DNA of 64,000 nt from Cryptosporangium aurantiacum. GTDB lineage: Bacteria > Actinomycetota > Actinomycetes > Mycobacteriales > Cryptosporangiaceae. Below the pieces are notes generated by a model. That model saw nothing but the letters and a program-made list of their open reading frames with translations, was not told where the DNA came from and did not search any database. The position numbers and the translations under genes were made by a program. Below, piece after piece: positions 7,751 through 64,000 of this stretch; the stretch's first letter is position 1, and each line of letters begins with the position of its first letter. The stretch is from positions 1 through 64,000 of the forward strand of contig NZ_FRCS01000014.1 of assembly GCF_900143005.1 (NCBI RefSeq), given 5' to 3'.

Positions 7751-8884
7751 TCAGAAAGGCCGGACCGCCGCGTCCGGACCGAGCTCGACGCTCGCGGCGA
7801 CCTTGCGCATCTCGGCCACCGGCATGCCGAACGAGTCCTTGACGTCGACGACCACGACGAACTTCGGGTTGGCTGCGAGCGGCGCGGTGAACAGCGTCCG
7901 GCCCTCGCGTCGCACCACCCAGCCCTCCGCGGGGACCGGCGGTGCTTCGCCGCTCCGGCGGAACTTGGCTGCGTCCTCCGCGCTCTCCGGCGGGTAGAGG
8001 AAGTCGATCTCCGGCGCGTTCGCCGCATAGACGGTCACGTTGACCTGGGTGTCGACGTTCTCGTTGTGCCCGTTGGGCTGCTCCTGCTGGCTGACCCGGC
8101 GGGCCGGCGCATCGGCGTCGACAAAACCGGCGGTGACCCCGTGCTCGTCGTTCGCCAGCTGACCCCAGACAACGTTACCGGGCAACAGCCCGAGCCGGAT
8201 CACGTCGCCGACCGGCCGCGACCGGTCGACCAGGGCCGTGGCGATGTCGACCAGGTCCTGCTTGCTGAGCTCCAGATCGATGTCGCCCGCCGAGTTCTGC
8301 ACGATGATGCGGATCCACTGGCCCGGCTTCCGCTCGAAGATCAGCTCGGCGTACGGGCCCTCGGCCTCCGGTGGCGAGCTGCCCCACTTCGGGTCGCCCG
8401 CCCGGTGGGTCGGCACCCAGTACAGGCTTCCGGGCGTGCCGCCCACGTCGACGCGGGACAGCGTGCCTCCGCCTGCGCGCTCCTGCGGGCGCACCGCCAT
8501 GATCTGCACCTGCAGTGCGGCATGGCCCTTCTCGCGCCGGGTGTCCAGCCCCCAGGCCTTCGGGCCCAGCAGCCGGACCGTCGGCTCCGGGAACCCGTCC
8601 GGGAGCCAGCCGACGTCGACCGGGGACGGTGGTGCGGTGGCGCTGCTGCCGGCCGGCGTCGCGACCTGCAGCCGCTGGGGCGCCTCGTCCCGGGTGTTCA
8701 GCGCCAGCACACCGGCGCCGCCGATCAGCGCCAGCACCAGCACGACGGCCGTCCCGGTCAGCAGCCGACGCCGGCGATCCCGGCGCGCGCGCCGGTGGAC
8801 GGCAGGCAGCAACCCGGTGTCGGACGGCGCGTCCTCGGCGCGTTCGGCGTAGAAGCTGCGGAGTGCGGTGTCGAGATCGTTCAC
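7751..8884 (-). CDS. membrane partner of the SigE-family sigma factor (putative anti-sigma)
   Basis: This 377-residue protein has a short cytosolic N-terminus (VNDLDTALRSFYAERAED), a basic stretch RRARRDRRRR, one membrane helix at about residues 39-57 and a long extracytoplasmic domain of unknown fold. The GTG start at 8884 has AGGAGG five bases upstream and overlaps the sigma-factor stop (GTGA). Single-pass genes coupled directly to SigE-family sigma genes are common in actinomycetes and are thought to regulate them, but no zinc-binding anti-sigma motif (HxxxCxxC) is visible. Anti-sigma function is therefore inference from position and topology. Confidence 0.65.
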   Translation of the reverse strand: MNDLDTALRSFYAERAEDAPSDTGLLPAVHRRARRDRRRRLLTGTAVVLVLALIGGAGVLALNTRDEAPQRLQVATPAGSSATAPPSPVDVGWLPDGFPEPTVRLLGPKAWGLDTRREKGHAALQVQIMAVRPQERAGGGTLSRVDVGGTPGSLYWVPTHRAGDPKWGSSPPEAEGPYAELIFERKPGQWIRIIVQNSAGDIDLELSKQDLVDIATALVDRSRPVGDVIRLGLLPGNVVWGQLANDEHGVTAGFVDADAPARRVSQQEQPNGHNENVDTQVNVTVYAANAPEIDFLYPPESAEDAAKFRRSGEAPPVPAEGWVVRREGRTLFTAPLAANPKFVVVVDVKDSFGMPVAEMRKVAASVELGPDAAVRPF

Positions 8885-9402
8885 GATGGCCTCCTGTTTC
8901 CGACGACGCTCGCCTGGGCGGAGACGCGTAATCGCGCCAGCCCCCGGCTCGCGTGACCGCGGACGGTGGCCGGCGAGCAACCGAGCAGTTCGCCGATCGC
9001 CGTGTCGTCCAGGTCCTCGTAGAACCGCAGGAACAGCACCGCGCGCTGCCGCCGGGGCAGCGTCGCCAGCAGCGTGCCGAGCGCGTCCCGGTCGACCAGC
9101 GCGTCGGCGGGGTCGCGGGACACGGGTTCAGGACCGACGGCGTCCATCGCCGGTACTTCGCTGGACGACCGTCTCCGGCGCCAGGACAGGTACTGCCGCA
9201 ACACCGCCTTACGGACGTACGGACCCGGCTGCTCGACCCGCCGGATCCGGTCCCACCGCCGGTGGACCTTGACCAGCGCCTCCTGGACCAGATCCTCGGC
9301 CAGGTGGTGGTCGCCGGTCAGGACGTAGGTGAACCGCAGCAGCGCGGCACCGTCGGCGGCCACGTAGGAGTCGAACGACTCCCCGTCGGGTTTCATCGGC
9401 AC
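8881..9402 (-). CDS. SigE-family (SigE70-type) RNA polymerase sigma factor
   Basis: This 173-residue group 4 sigma factor has region 2 with FTYVLTGDHHLAEDLVQEAL (about residues 24-43) and WDRIRRVEQPGPYVRKAV. Region 4 is LPRRQRAVLFLRFYEDLDD followed by the helix-turn-helix AIGELLGCSPATVRGHASRG. It directs polymerase to a small stress or envelope regulon. The GTG at 9402 is chosen over the ATG at 9396 because GGAGG lies six bases before the GTG. The stop overlaps the next gene. A conserved 12-base element lies 39 bases upstream (9441-9452), suggesting autoregulation. Confidence 0.9.
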   Translation of the reverse strand: MPMKPDGESFDSYVAADGAALLRFTYVLTGDHHLAEDLVQEALVKVHRRWDRIRRVEQPGPYVRKAVLRQYLSWRRRRSSSEVPAMDAVGPEPVSRDPADALVDRDALGTLLATLPRRQRAVLFLRFYEDLDDTAIGELLGCSPATVRGHASRGLARLRVSAQASVVGNRRPS

Positions 9403-9440
9403 CTGTCTCCTCCCCTGTCGTCAGTAAGACGCCGGGACGA

Positions 9441-9452
9441 GACGAATCTGTG
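9441..9452 (-). promoter_or_regulatory. candidate SigE-type promoter element
   Basis: On the minus strand this reads CACAGATTCGTC. The identical 12 bases lie 55 bp before the zinc-peptidase lipoprotein gene (59045-59056, minus). CGTC is a typical -10 core for ECF-like sigma factors. Position before the sigma gene's own start suggests autoregulation; this is inferred from only two copies. Confidence 0.45.
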
Positions 9453-9484: not shown

Positions 9485-11044
9485 TCAGCGCGCCGCGGCG
9501 AGGCCGGTGAGGAACGCGTCCCGGCACCGGGCGAACGCGCCGTGGCGGTTGACGAGAATGCGCCGCGGTGACGGCGTTCCGGACGCGAACCAGACGACCA
9601 GGAACAGGACGCTGAACCCGGCCCCGGTGCCCGCCGAGATCGCGATCGTCGCGACCAGCCCGACCCGATGATCGCCGTCCAGCACGGAGATACCCGCGGA
9701 CACCAGCGCCATCAGGAACATCCCGGCCGCGACGCTGACGACCGGCGGCACCCACGGTGACAGCAACCGCTGCGCCAGCTGCCACCAGACGAGGTCGCGC
9801 TGCCCGTGCAGGTGGAGATCGACGGCCAGGTAGGTCAGCCACCGGGTCGCCTTCGCGACGTCCGGCGGCCGGTAGAACCGCGGACCGGTCTCGTCCGGTG
9901 CCGGTGCCTCGGCGTAGGCGGCTTCGATCACCTGATCGAGCACGTAGTCCTCGACGTCGTACCGTGACTCGTACACGTGCTGTTTCAGCAGATCGGCCGG
10001 TCGGCCGCCGAGTCGCTGGTAGACGCTCCGCGCCAGCGACACCATCAGCGGCGTCGACATCATCTGGCCGACCGGCGACTGCGGATTCGCGCGGAGCTCG
10101 GCGTAGACGTCGTCCCAGCTCACCTCGGGCGGCCACGGCACGTCCTGCAGGTAGCGAATGACGTCCTCGACCGCGACCGGCTCGACCCGCACCACCGGCG
10201 CCTGGTGCAGGGTCGGCGACCCACCGGCGATCAGGTCCGCGTACTCGGCCGCCCGGCAGGTCAGCACGACGCCCCGGCCCTGCCGGATCGACTCGTTGGT
10301 GCGCTGCACGGCGGTCCGCCGGCCGGATTCCCGCATCTCGTCCAGCCCGTCGATGACCGGGATCACGAGGTTCTCCGCGAGCAGCGCGTCGATCGCCTCG
10401 CGTTTGAAGCCGTAGTAGGTGTCCGCGACCGCCTGCGCGACCCATTCGTCGAGCTTCGGCGTGGCGATCGGATCCCAGGACGAGGCCGAGAGCAGCACCG
10501 GGACCGGGCCGCCCTCGGGCCGGGACTTCACGATGCCGAGCGTCAGCAGGATCGCCAGCACGGTCTTGCCGGATCCCGGCTCCCCCACCAGTACCATCCG
10601 CCGCCCGGCGAGCTGGTCGAAGCTCTCGGCCATCCGCTGGACGGCCGCGTCGAAGTCCCCGTCGAGCCGGCCGCTCAGCCGGAGCGTGACGGCCGCACCT
10701 TCCGGTCCGTCCGCGGTGCGTTCGGTCATCCAGCTCAGCGGGAGCACGCCGTGGTCCCGCAGCCCCCTGGCGCGGGACTCGGAGAGCCACTCCTTCTCCA
10801 CGGTCCGGGCCAGATCGTCCGCGAGCGCGGCGACCGGACGCGACGCTCCGCCGGGTTGCTGGCGGAGGAACGACGCGGTGTCGTACGCGAACGTGACCGA
10901 CGCGAGCAGCAGGCCCACCACACTGGCCGGCTCGACGGTCCCGCGCACGGCGGACACCACGACCCACCCGATGCAGGCCAGAACGGCGGATCCCAGTACG
11001 ACGAACGCAACCCGGCGAACAGCGTCTCGCCACCGCTGCGTCAA
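9485..11044 (-). CDS. membrane-embedded NACHT-domain NTPase (STAND class)
   Basis: This 519-residue protein has two N-terminal membrane helices (about 10-30 and 40-58). A NACHT NTPase domain follows, with Walker A GEPGSGKT at 154-161, Walker B VIDGLDEM at 230-237 and the sensor-like LTCRAAEY at 261-268. Two further membrane helices lie at about 433-455 and 461-487. STAND NTPases are signal-driven switches. No leucine-rich, WD40 or TPR sensor repeats and no obvious effector nuclease are present, so the membrane parts may be the sensor or effector. The start is TTG at 11044; an in-frame TAG two codons upstream excludes anything longer, and AGGGG lies six bases before it. Confidence 0.75.
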   Translation of the reverse strand: MTQRWRDAVRRVAFVVLGSAVLACIGWVVVSAVRGTVEPASVVGLLLASVTFAYDTASFLRQQPGGASRPVAALADDLARTVEKEWLSESRARGLRDHGVLPLSWMTERTADGPEGAAVTLRLSGRLDGDFDAAVQRMAESFDQLAGRRMVLVGEPGSGKTVLAILLTLGIVKSRPEGGPVPVLLSASSWDPIATPKLDEWVAQAVADTYYGFKREAIDALLAENLVIPVIDGLDEMRESGRRTAVQRTNESIRQGRGVVLTCRAAEYADLIAGGSPTLHQAPVVRVEPVAVEDVIRYLQDVPWPPEVSWDDVYAELRANPQSPVGQMMSTPLMVSLARSVYQRLGGRPADLLKQHVYESRYDVEDYVLDQVIEAAYAEAPAPDETGPRFYRPPDVAKATRWLTYLAVDLHLHGQRDLVWWQLAQRLLSPWVPPVVSVAAGMFLMALVSAGISVLDGDHRVGLVATIAISAGTGAGFSVLFLVVWFASGTPSPRRILVNRHGAFARCRDAFLTGLAAAR

Positions 11045-58212: not shown

Positions 58213-58989
58213 TCAGAGCTGGGTGCCGTTCGCGCTGTCCAGGTGGCACTGGTCCAGCGAGCCGCGGTAGCCGCGCGCGAACGCGTCGAGGCGCTGGTCC
58301 ATCGTGCCGTGGGTGCCCGGCGCGAACCAGGTGGCGAACTTGTCCCCGCCCTGCGCCGGGTCGCCGAGCGCACGAACGCCGCGCGTCAGCTCCTCGATGT
58401 CACCGTCTTCGAGCTCGAGCGTGCCGGACCGCACCGAGTCACCGATGAACGCACCGGACAGGCAGTCGGCCTGTAACTCGATAGTGATGCTGACCAGCTG
58501 GTTGGCCTTCACCCGCTCCTGGATCGCGTGTGCGTACTCGTGCGCGAAGAGGAAGTAGACGAACGTGTCGCCGAGCTGCTGGTAACTCTGCCGCACCCAG
58601 TTCACGTCGTAGGAGATGCTGTCGTCCGGCGGGCAGTAGAACGCGTTCATCGCGGGCTGGGGCTGACCGGCGCAGCTCAGCTCGCCGTCCTTCGTGTACG
58701 GCCGGATGGTCCCGACCGGCTTGAAGTCGTGCCCGGCGGCCGTGAACTTCTCGTCCCAGTAGGCGGCGACCAGCCGGAAGGCGGCCTCGACCTCGGCGTC
58801 GAACTCCGTACTGGGCGACGCCGTGCCGACGGCGTTCGCGGGCGCCGCGCCGGAGGTGGACCGAGTGGCGGTCGGAGCACCGGGGGCGGCCGAGCCACCA
58901 CCGGATCCGGTACACCCGGCAACTGCCAGGAGCGCTACCGCGCCCAACAGGGCCGCGATGCGGCGACCGGTTCCGACTATGCCACTCAT
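58213..58989 (-). CDS. neutral zinc metallopeptidase lipoprotein (YpfJ family)
   Basis: This 258-residue lipoprotein has a lipobox LAVAGC (Cys26) and a Ser/Thr/Ala linker. The peptidase domain has HEYAH (150-154) as zinc ligands and catalytic Glu, with ELQADC (171-176) giving the third ligand region, and FYCPPDDSISYD before it. It is anchored outside the membrane. Its physiological target is unknown. The promoter contains the same 12-base element as the sigma-factor gene at 8881, suggesting SigE-type control. ATG at 58989 has GAGGAC upstream. Confidence 0.85.
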   Translation of the reverse strand: MSGIVGTGRRIAALLGAVALLAVAGCTGSGGGSAAPGAPTATRSTSGAAPANAVGTASPSTEFDAEVEAAFRLVAAYWDEKFTAAGHDFKPVGTIRPYTKDGELSCAGQPQPAMNAFYCPPDDSISYDVNWVRQSYQQLGDTFVYFLFAHEYAHAIQERVKANQLVSITIELQADCLSGAFIGDSVRSGTLELEDGDIEELTRGVRALGDPAQGGDKFATWFAPGTHGTMDQRLDAFARGYRGSLDQCHLDSANGTQL

Positions 58990-59044
58990 GCTCGTGTCCT
59001 CACTGTCGTGTCCGTTGTGGTGGCCCGACTGAACCACGGGGCGT

Positions 59045-59056
59045 GACGAATCTGTG
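59045..59056 (-). promoter_or_regulatory. candidate SigE-type promoter element
   Basis: On the minus strand this reads CACAGATTCGTC, identical to 9441-9452 upstream of the sigma gene, and lies 55 bp before the zinc-peptidase start. GTAACC occurs 15 bases further upstream and could be a -35. A regulon link is inferred. Confidence 0.45.
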
Positions 59057-59206
59057 TCGCACCGGTTACAGAGCAAAAGTCCTGCGATGCGCGTCACACC
59101 GGCTCGAACGGTCACGGGAGAACTCGCATAGAGTACGTACGTTCGTTCGCAGAGTTAGCTACGGTTGTGCCTTCGTGCGCGGCGGACGCAAGGGGAGGCC
59201 GAAGCA

Positions 59207-60781
59207 ATGTGGGGTGTCGTCCTCACGGTTGTCTTCTCCACCGCCGCAGCCGTCGCGCTCCTCACCGCCGTGGTCGCCTATCGCGCACGCACGGTGGTCC
59301 CCGCCGGTACGCCGCTGTTCCTCGCCGCGATCGGGATCACGTGCTGGTCGGTGACCGCTGCGGTGACCGCGGACCGCACCGATCCGGACCTCATCACGAC
59401 CCTCGCGTCGATCGGCGTGTTCGGACAGTGCCTGATCGTGCTGGGCTACCTCGGGCTCGCCGAGGTCGTCAGCGGGCGTCCGTGGCGCCCCGGCCGGCGC
59501 GCGCTGGTGCTGCTCGGCATCGAACCGGCGCTAGTGGTGACCGCGCTGATCACCGAGCCGTGGCACCACCTGTTCTTCGACGGCATCACCCGGACGCCGG
59601 TCGGCACCTGGCAGGCCGGGATCGGCGTCGGGTACACGCTGCACATCGTCTACAGCTACGCGATCGTGCTGTTCGGCGCCTATCGCGGGCTGCGGTTGGC
59701 GCGGCGCCGCTCGACGTTCAGCCGCCGGGCCGGGCGGTGGCTGATCGCGATCGTCGCGCCGCCGGTCGTCGCGAACGTCGTCGCGATGACGATGCTGGAC
59801 AACATCGACGTCACGCTGATCGGCACCACGATCAGCACGGTGCTCGCGTACGGCGCGCTGACCTGGCGATCGCTCGAACTGCTTCCGGTGGCCAGGGCGC
59901 AGCTCGTCGACACGCTCGCGGACGGCGTCGTCGTGGTCGACCGGAACGGCAACGTCGCCGACCTGAACGCGGTCGGCAGGCAGATGGTCCTGGAGACGGC
60001 TCCCTGGATCACCGACCCGATCGGCGTCGAACTGGACTCGATCGACCCGACGTTCCCGGCGCTGGCCGAGAGCGACGCGGACTTCATCTTCGTCTCCGCC
60101 CGGCTCGGCCTCGACCTGGAGATCCGTACCCGGGTCATCCGCGACCGGCACGGAGCGCTGGCCGGCTGGGTGCTGATCGCCCGGGACGTCACCGAGTTCC
60201 GCGAGCAGCGGCGGGCGCTGGAGGCTGCGAACCAGCAGCTGCGGGAACAGATCACGACGATCGACCGGCTCCGCGCCGACCTCGCCGAGCAGGCCATCCG
60301 GGACGCGCTGACCGGGCTGCACAACCGTAGGCACCTGATGAACGTCCTCGCCGCGGCGGAGCGCGACCACACCGGGCCGATCAGCGTCGCGCTCATCGAC
60401 GTCGACCATTTCAAGCAGGTCAACGACCGGTACGGGCACGCGGCAGGCGACCGGGTCCTGGTCGCGGTCGCGCGGTTGCTGGCCGCCGGGGTCAGGCCGA
60501 CCGACGTGCTGGCCCGCTACGGTGGTGAGGAATTTGTCCTGTTGATGCCCGGCTGCACGGTGGACGACGCGGCGGACCGGCTCGAACAACTCCGCAAACA
60601 GGTGGCCGCGACCCCGATCGAGCTGGCCGGCCGGACGGTGACGGTCAGCTTCAGCGCGGGCGTCGCGTCCGGCTGGGGCCGATTGAATACGGACGCCATG
60701 CTCGAGGCGGCCGATCACGCGCTGTACGCCGCGAAGCGCAACGGTCGCGACCGGGTGGAGCTGGCAACCCCCGTCCGGTGA
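59207..60781 (+). CDS. membrane diguanylate cyclase (7TM + PAS-like + GGDEF)
   Basis: This 524-residue protein has seven N-terminal helices (about 1-220, histidine-kinase 7TM type). A PAS-like region (about 240-340; DTLADGVVVVDRNGNVADLN) and a short coiled coil follow. The GGDEF domain is last, with the active-site RYGGEEF and the inhibitory I-site RPTD five residues before GG. It should make cyclic di-GMP from two GTP and be product-inhibited. ATG at 59207 with GGGGAGG upstream is preferred over a longer frame. A weak hairpin overlaps the end (60767-60795). Confidence 0.85.
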   Translation: MWGVVLTVVFSTAAAVALLTAVVAYRARTVVPAGTPLFLAAIGITCWSVTAAVTADRTDPDLITTLASIGVFGQCLIVLGYLGLAEVVSGRPWRPGRRALVLLGIEPALVVTALITEPWHHLFFDGITRTPVGTWQAGIGVGYTLHIVYSYAIVLFGAYRGLRLARRRSTFSRRAGRWLIAIVAPPVVANVVAMTMLDNIDVTLIGTTISTVLAYGALTWRSLELLPVARAQLVDTLADGVVVVDRNGNVADLNAVGRQMVLETAPWITDPIGVELDSIDPTFPALAESDADFIFVSARLGLDLEIRTRVIRDRHGALAGWVLIARDVTEFREQRRALEAANQQLREQITTIDRLRADLAEQAIRDALTGLHNRRHLMNVLAAAERDHTGPISVALIDVDHFKQVNDRYGHAAGDRVLVAVARLLAAGVRPTDVLARYGGEEFVLLMPGCTVDDAADRLEQLRKQVAATPIELAGRTVTVSFSAGVASGWGRLNTDAMLEAADHALYAAKRNGRDRVELATPVR

Positions 60782-61273: not shown

Positions 61274-64000
61274 TCAGGCGCCTGCGTCGCGTTGGCGGCC
61301 CAGTTTTGGGTGGCCCAGTTTTGGGTGGCCCAGTGCGGTGGCGAGGTCGTCCAGGTATCGAGCCACCGGCCCGAGCGTGAGTAGCCCACTGCCCGCCCCG
61401 GCGAGTTCCCCCGCCGCGGGCAGCAGCGCCGCGTACAGGCGTTCCATCGCCGGGCGGTCGCCGTCCGCGATCGCGACCCGCGCGTGCAGGCAGGTGCGGG
61501 CCTCGTACAGCAGGTCCCTCGGCGAATCGGGGATCGCGGCGGCACCGCCGCCGGACAGCACCGGGCGGGCCCACGGAGCGTAGGCGCCGAAGTCGGTGTC
61601 CGGCGGCAGCGCGGGCGGTTCGCCGCGCTGGAGACGATGGCAGAGCAGCGCGAACGGCAGGATGCCGCGCTCCAGGCCGGACATGCCGGTCCCGGCCAGG
61701 CGCGCGGCCGCGGCCCGGTAGCGGGCTTCGGCGTCGGCACCCGACCCGGACGCCGACGCGCGCAGCGCCCGGTACCAGTCGGTGAACACGGCTACCAGCG
61801 GGGATTGGTACCGCTCGCCGAGCGCGTCCGCCACCCGCGCGTGCTCGTCGGCTGCCACGAACTCCGCGAGCGCCGACCGCGCCTGGAGCAGGATCAAATG
61901 GCCGAGGATCTCGAACGTCGGCAGCTCGTGGCGGTGCGATAGTTCGACCAGCTCGGTCCCGAGACGGGCCCGCTCGGGCGCACGGCCCGCGCGTCCGAAC
62001 GACTGCATGAACGACGCGTTGAGCGCGAACGCCAGCACGGCCGGGTCGCCGAGGTCCCTGGCGAGGCGTTCCGCGTCTCGGGCGGCCGCGGCGGCGCGTT
62101 CTCCGCCCTCGCCGCGGAGCTCCAGCGCCAGCGTGGCGAGCAACCGGCTCCGGTCGGCGACGTGGTCGGCGGGGAGCGCGGACAGGGTCCGCGCGGCGAC
62201 CTCGGCGATGTGCCTGCCGAGCGCCGGATCGTCGTGCTCGGTCCAGATCGCCGGTACGTCGAACGCGCCGATCACCCGCGCGGTCAACACCGGGTCGCCG
62301 ATCTCCTCGGCCAGCGCGATCGCCTCCGCCCTGCGGTGGCGCGCGGTGGCGAGCGCCCCGGTCACCGCGAACGCCCGAACGCCGCCCATGATCAGGTCGA
62401 GCCGGGCGCGGATGTCGTTCTCGCCGGCTCGGTCGAACGCTTCGAGTGCGGCGTCCCAGAGGCGGGCCGCTTCCGAGGGGGCGTGACGCCGCTCGGCGCG
62501 TTCGGCGGCGGCGCGCGCGTACCGGGCGGCGCGGGCCGCGGCGTCCGGGCCGTCGGCGTGCAGGTAGTGGTGGGCCAGCGCCTCGACGTCGTCCGGGCGC
62601 AGCCGTTCGACGGCGTCGGCGGCGGCCGCGTGCCAGGCCGCCCGCCGCGAACGGGAGACGTCGGAGGAGAGCGCGTCGCGGACCAGCGCGTGGGCGAACG
62701 CGAACCGGCCGGTGCCCTGCTCGACAAGCAGACCGGCCGCAACAGCAACCTCCACGGCCCCCAACAGGGCGTCCCCGACGCCCCCAGCGCCCGCCACGCC
62801 CGCCACGCCCGCCACGCCGCCAGCGTTCGCGACGCCGGCCACGTCGGCCACGTCGGCAGCGGGTGGAGCGCCGTGCTTCGCGCCGGGGTCGAGGGCGGTG
62901 GGATTCCGAGTGGCGCGGTCCGCGCCGGGTTGCGCGGCCGCGGGGCGGAGCGATGGGGCCTCGTTCAGCGCGGTCAGGATCGGGAGGTCGAGGCCGAGTA
63001 CGGCGGCGCGGTGCAGGACGGCCGGCACCGGCTCTGGCAGCGCGGCCACCCGGTACCGGACGACGTCCCGGACGCCGGGCGGCACCGCGGCGAGCCCGTC
63101 CGCGCCCTCGGCGTCGTAGAGGCGGGCCAGCTCCCGGACGAAGAACGGGTTGCCGCCGGTGCGGCGGTGGATCGTGGCCGCGGTCGGTGTGTCGACGTCG
63201 CGGTCGATCGTCGCGCGGACCAGGTCGGGAATCGCCGCGAGCGGGAGGCCGCCGAGGTACACCCGGGTGGGCTCGGCGCGGGCGACCCGGCCGAGGACCT
63301 CGGCGAGCGGCGCGGGGAGGTCGGTGCTGCGGTAGGTCGCCACCAGCAGCACCGGTGCCGCGACCGGCTCGGTGACGAGCGCCGCGAGCAACCCCAGCGT
63401 CTCCGCGCCCGCCCAGTGCAGGTCGTCGACGACCAGCAGCAGCGGGGCGTGGCGGGCGACCGCGGTCAGGTACTCGCCGACCGCGCGGTGCCACCGGAAC
63501 CGCGCGGCCGCCGGGTCGCCGCCCGGGGAGGGTGCGTACGGCGGGTCGGGAACGACCGCGCTGAGCGTGTCGAGGATCCGGTGCCACGGCCAGCCCGCCG
63601 GAAGGCCCCGATCGTCGGGGTTGGTGCCACTCGCCGTGGCCCAGCCGTCCGCGCCGAGCCGGGCGACGAGCGCATCGGCCAGCGCGGTCTTGCCCGCGCC
63701 GGCCTCGCCCGAGATCAGCGCCGGCCGCAGCGCTCCCCGTGCCAGAACCCCGTCCGCCGCCGCCCGCAGCTGCGCATACTCCACCTGCCTCCCAACAAGC
63801 TCCCCACCGCCGCCGGCCACAGCCGCGCCGCCAACGGCCCCACCACCCGCCGCGGCCGGCCCGACCACAGCCGCCCCCGCGGCGGCCGGCCCGAACGCCG
63901 CCCCCGCGGCGGCCGGCCCGAACGCCGCCCTCACGGCGGCCGGCCCGAATGCCGCCCTCGCGGCGGCCGAACCCACGGCGCCCGAACCCACGGCGCCCGA
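61274..64000 (-). CDS. large AAA/STAND-type transcriptional regulator (LuxR/SARP-like), 5' end beyond window
   Basis: This gene is read leftward and its frame is still open at base 64000, so the N-terminus is missing. The visible 908 residues show a Gly/Ala/Pro-rich linker, then Walker A SGEAGAGKTAL, Walker B LLVVDDLHWAG, RTGGNPFFVREL and a long helical-repeat region (TPR-like) to the C-terminus. No C-terminal LuxR HTH is present. The missing N-terminal part may be a SARP-type DNA-binding domain. The last residues contain a repeated LGHPK. Such proteins often control secondary metabolism. Confidence 0.75.
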   Translation of the reverse strand, partial: SGAVGSGAVGSAAARAAFGPAAVRAAFGPAAAGAAFGPAAAGAAVVGPAAAGGGAVGGAAVAGGGGELVGRQVEYAQLRAAADGVLARGALRPALISGEAGAGKTALADALVARLGADGWATASGTNPDDRGLPAGWPWHRILDTLSAVVPDPPYAPSPGGDPAAARFRWHRAVGEYLTAVARHAPLLLVVDDLHWAGAETLGLLAALVTEPVAAPVLLVATYRSTDLPAPLAEVLGRVARAEPTRVYLGGLPLAAIPDLVRATIDRDVDTPTAATIHRRTGGNPFFVRELARLYDAEGADGLAAVPPGVRDVVRYRVAALPEPVPAVLHRAAVLGLDLPILTALNEAPSLRPAAAQPGADRATRNPTALDPGAKHGAPPAADVADVAGVANAGGVAGVAGVAGAGGVGDALLGAVEVAVAAGLLVEQGTGRFAFAHALVRDALSSDVSRSRRAAWHAAAADAVERLRPDDVEALAHHYLHADGPDAAARAARYARAAAERAERRHAPSEAARLWDAALEAFDRAGENDIRARLDLIMGGVRAFAVTGALATARHRRAEAIALAEEIGDPVLTARVIGAFDVPAIWTEHDDPALGRHIAEVAARTLSALPADHVADRSRLLATLALELRGEGGERAAAAARDAERLARDLGDPAVLAFALNASFMQSFGRAGRAPERARLGTELVELSHRHELPTFEILGHLILLQARSALAEFVAADEHARVADALGERYQSPLVAVFTDWYRALRASASGSGADAEARYRAAAARLAGTGMSGLERGILPFALLCHRLQRGEPPALPPDTDFGAYAPWARPVLSGGGAAAIPDSPRDLLYEARTCLHARVAIADGDRPAMERLYAALLPAAGELAGAGSGLLTLGPVARYLDDLATALGHPKLGHPKLGRQRDAGA
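61297..61333 (-). repeat. 2.5 copies of a 15-bp in-frame repeat
   Basis: GGCCCAGTTTTGGGT occurs at 61297-61311 and 61312-61326, with a partial copy to 61333. It codes repeated LGHPK at the end of the regulator. Copy number may vary by slippage. Confidence 0.8.
63866..64000 (-). repeat. 27-bp and 15-bp in-frame repeats in regulator linker
   Basis: About three imperfect 27-bp units (core GCGGCGGCCGGCCCGAA) encode AAFGPAAAG. They are followed by two exact copies of ACCCACGGCGCCCGA (63971-63985, 63986-64000) encoding SGAVG. The array runs to the window edge and may continue. Confidence 0.75.

Follow-up and report, generated by a model that had tools for sequence, protein, structure and literature searches.

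A 12-base word upstream of a SigE-family sigma-factor gene is probably the -35 side of an ECF autopromoter, and its copy upstream of a zinc-peptidase gene is most likely a coincidence

Introduction

ECF sigma factors are commonly autoregulated, and the promoters that they serve typically have an AAC in the -35 region and a CGT in the -10 region (PMC8103513). The sigma-E promoters of Streptomyces coelicolor are two-part elements of this type, with an AAC core and a -10 of CGTCTT or CGTCTA (PMC6767563). For the SigE family defined by TIGR02983, we found no promoter motif in the literature.

Here we analyze a stretch of 64,000 nucleotides (the window) from an actinobacterial-type genome of 9.58 Mb and 71% GC, using three more genomes of the same genus (G001, G002, and G003) for comparison. 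A preliminary description of the window had noted that one 12-base word stands upstream of both a sigma-factor gene and a distant zinc-peptidase gene. It read the word as a promoter element with CGTC as the -10, through which the sigma factor would control both itself and the peptidase.

Results

The genes downstream of the two copies of the word are as follows, together with the neighbor of the sigma gene.

8881-9396, minus strand: SigE-family ECF sigma-factor gene, 171 aa (TIGR02983; Pfam sigma regions 2 and 4)
7751-8884, minus strand: putative membrane anti-sigma-like gene (read from sequence, with the role suggested by position)
58213-58989, minus strand: putative lipoprotein neutral zinc metallopeptidase gene, 258 aa (PF04228; lipobox VAGC)

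The gene identities originally proposed were borne out. The sigma protein scored 158.9 bits against TIGR02983 (curated cut-off, 141.55) and has sigma regions 2 and 4 as its only sigma regions (Pfam Sigma70_r2 and Sigma70_r4_2), and the peptidase scored 67.4 bits against PF04228 (gathering score, 23.2). The GTG start codon of the anti-sigma-like gene overlaps the sigma stop codon (GTGA); its product has one hydrophobic segment and returned no Pfam or NCBIfam match, and its position next to the sigma gene suggests an anti-sigma role. Directly upstream of the sigma gene, the gene at 9485-10960 (minus strand) has a weak NACHT-domain match, under the Pfam gathering score, and its product shows weak similarity to anti-phage NACHT proteins. 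We also noted that a relative (G002:C1:3064800-3069200) carries this sigma gene three times in tandem over less than 4 kb, and that a similar promoter-like element stands upstream of each copy.

The word, CACAGATTCGTC, occurs exactly and on the minus strand at 9441-9452 and 59045-59056, as first described, and nowhere else in the window. It ends 55 nt before the peptidase ATG (58989). For the sigma gene, the gap is 44 nt if translation starts at the likely ATG (9396) and 38 nt if it starts at an alternative GTG (9402). Besides these two, the whole genome has one further exact copy, making three in all, and G001, G002, and G003 have none. In a genome-wide search, 19 sites with at most one mismatch were found, versus 7 for the reversed control, and the majority of the one-mismatch sites lay inside predicted genes. 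The A/T content of the word is higher than that of most repeated 12-mers of the window. For the 58 window genes predicted by a rough codon-usage gene caller, exact 12-mers were common to the 100-nt upstream regions of three gene pairs, compared with 2.27 expected, and 92% of upstream sets simulated under a first-order Markov null contained at least one shared 12-mer. Sharing is thus at chance level, so that finding the same 12 bases in two promoters of a GC-rich, 58-gene window is not, taken alone, evidence of shared control.

An operator for a separate transcription factor acting on both genes would agree with the exact identity over 12 bases and with the similar upstream distances. However, the word contains no dyad or direct repeat, it is not conserved as a unit in the orthologs of either gene, and its third genomic copy is intergenic and 168 nt from a predicted start, all of which make an operator hardly credible.

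The upstream region of the sigma gene was compared with those of 19 SigE-family relatives, the set covering four species of the genus. An unsupervised two-block search of these 20 upstream regions returned [CA]AC[AG][GA]A[TA]C, a spacer of 12-13 nt, and CGTCTWA. The motif scored 313, versus 239 (sd, 7) in shuffled sequences, a control that overstates the significance because the upstream regions are also similar through kinship. In the window, the motif falls on the following features.

9445-9452, minus strand: predicted -35 element CACAGATT, with the core [CA]AC, forming the first 8 bases of the word (motif discovery; leave-one-out scoring; CACAGA in the ortholog)
9441-9444, minus strand: CGTC ending the word, read as spacer and not as the -10 (CGGT in the closest ortholog)
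9423-9431, minus strand: CGTCTTACT, the predicted -10 element for the sigma gene (unchanged in the G003 and G002a orthologs)

The window site, consisting of CACAGATT (9452-9445), 13 nt, and CGTCTTACT (9431-9423), had a leave-one-out score of 23.1. Under the full motif model, it ranked first among 2.5 million strand positions in a genome sample of about 1.26 Mb. From the [CA]AC core to CGTC there are 17-18 nt, as is usual for ECF promoters (PMC6767563; PMC8103513), and the CGT core of the -10 is near-invariant across the 18 sigma promoters compared (17, 16, and 17 sequences). Poor fits within the family were seen for G002c (6.0), C27 (3.8), and C23 (5.4). Outside the genus, most homologs lack the same -35 and only some single members fit the genus model; a de novo search of their upstream regions revealed no clear ECF motif.

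The closest sigma ortholog (G003; protein, 82% identical) reads CACAGAAT-CGGTCTCCTCCCG-CGTCTTACT, in which CACAGA and the -10 are kept and CGTC is replaced by CGGT. Since both the -35 and the -10 below it are conserved and the CGTC between them is not, the word belongs to the -35 side. The CGTC inside it is thus not the -10, contrary to what had been proposed; the conserved -10 lies 9 nt further down. The original reading, in which CGTC would serve as the -10 of an element controlling both genes, drew on the exact identity of the two copies and their similar distances to both start codons. It also gains from a TGTAAC 16 nt above CGTC before the window peptidase, in ECF-like geometry. Nevertheless, in the closest orthologs CGTC has become CGGT before the sigma gene and CTCC before the peptidase, where the upstream AAC also is lost. 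Moreover, the sigma copy has no suitably spaced AAC ahead of it, and the word is absent from the sister species, with sharing of such words expected by chance. We consider the original reading very improbable.

The strict bipartite pattern CACRGA-N15-CGTCTWA has one site in this genome (9425-9452) and one in G003, each before this sigma gene, and its reversed control has no match in either genome. This makes autoregulation of the sigma gene the best reading, and a plausible one, judged from the sequence: the gene probably controls itself. The site has the form of an autoregulated ECF promoter, namely an AAC-like -35, a CGT -10, and ECF spacing, placed before a sigma gene and conserved in relatives. 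The claim of a promoter element at 9441 is therefore retained, as a conserved ECF-type promoter, and the proposed self-control of the sigma factor is consistent with it.

The upstream region of the peptidase gene presents a different picture, and two features in it are relevant.

59045-59056, minus strand: second copy of the word, upstream of the peptidase gene (9 of 12 bases in the ortholog; motif score, 12.0)
59028-59039, minus strand: CCGTGGTTCAGT, a conserved block upstream of peptidase orthologs (TTCAGT in 4 of 4 species)

In the nearest peptidase ortholog (G003; protein, 74% identical), the word reads CACCGATTCTCC, while the 17 bases CCCCGTGGTTCAGTCGG (window 59025-59042, minus strand) are identical upstream of both genes. 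TTCAGT is kept in four species, mostly as GTGGTTCAGT. The peptidase has GGTTCAGT at the place of the -10, so that GGTTCAG stands where the sigma promoter has CGTCTTA. In a search for the conserved block, the only exact copy was the one in the window, and no regulon was found for it. The CCGTGGTTCAGT block is probably part of a promoter of another specificity that serves the peptidase. The two-part sigma promoter does not recur here as a conserved element, given the missing CGT -10, the common score, and the unconserved word. Hence neither the notion of a promoter element common to both genes nor that of peptidase control by the sigma factor could be upheld.

The sigma factor might still recognize both promoters if they had the -35, CACAGATT, in common and the -10 were tolerant (CGTCTTA and GGTTCAG), the peptidase being a weak member of its regulon. 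CAC does lie 21 nt above CGTCTTA in the one promoter and above GGTTCAG in the other, and the sigma motif gives the peptidase site a score of 12.0 and its G003 ortholog 8.1 in the same register. However, the near-invariant CGT core is absent at the peptidase, scores of at least 12.0 occur at about 108 sites per Mb-strand, and the orthologs score lower at that place, those in G001 and G002 being without a CAC(A/G)GA element. Dual recognition of this kind is unlikely, although the sigma and peptidase promoters may have a weak -35 in common, the G003 peptidase ortholog having a partly similar CACCGATT at the same spacing. A small species-specific regulon is likewise improbable; in it, the sigma factor would drive its own gene and, to a weak degree, that of a surface zinc peptidase, by way of a common -35 and a degenerate -10. 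Most likely, the match upstream of the peptidase arose by chance, because a different block is conserved in the peptidase promoter.

Two further observations concern the DNA beyond the peptidase gene. Between it and a divergent GGDEF gene, at about 59119-59160, lies a block, GCTAACTCTGCGAACGAACGTACGTACTCTATGCGAGTTCT, that is near-identical in the nearest relative and may act as promoter or operator for the diguanylate cyclase gene (59207-60781). At 61300-61328, near the end of a long gene, there is a direct repeat of CCAGTTTTGGGTGG, 15 nt apart.

Discussion

A bipartite element stands directly before the sigma gene, is conserved upstream of its relatives in the genus, and is unique in the genome. 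Most likely, as judged by comparison of sequences, the word at 9441-9452 represents the -35 element and first spacer bases of an ordinary ECF autopromoter, and the peptidase copy is a coincidence. We infer that the sigma factor itself recognizes CACAGATT-N13-CGTCTTACT. Once released, it most likely would guide RNA polymerase to this site, which would raise transcription of the presumed sigma operon, comprising the sigma gene and the putative membrane anti-sigma gene. The peptidase gene probably would be transcribed from a promoter of other specificity that includes the GGTTCAGT block. The analysis provides a usable promoter model for the paralog-rich SigE-family group of this genus and otherwise adds little beyond annotation.

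The predicted window promoter resembles the autoregulated ECF promoters (PMC8103513) in its [CA]AC core, the 17-18 nt to CGTC, its position directly upstream of the sigma gene, and a gene order in which a putative membrane anti-sigma gene follows; it differs in its -35, which is CACRGAWC rather than of the GGAAC type. The S. coelicolor sigma-E promoters (PMC6767563) share with it the two-part form, the AAC core, and the CGTCTT or CGTCTA -10, the two parts being separated by about 16-17 nt, yet they have a GGAAC-like -35 and sigma-E has no anti-sigma factor. Unlike the autoregulation that we favor for the window gene, the gene for sigma-E is not itself a sigma-E target and is controlled by CseBC (PMC6767563). 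In its geometry, the window sigma promoter is usual for ECF sigma factors and represents ordinary biology.
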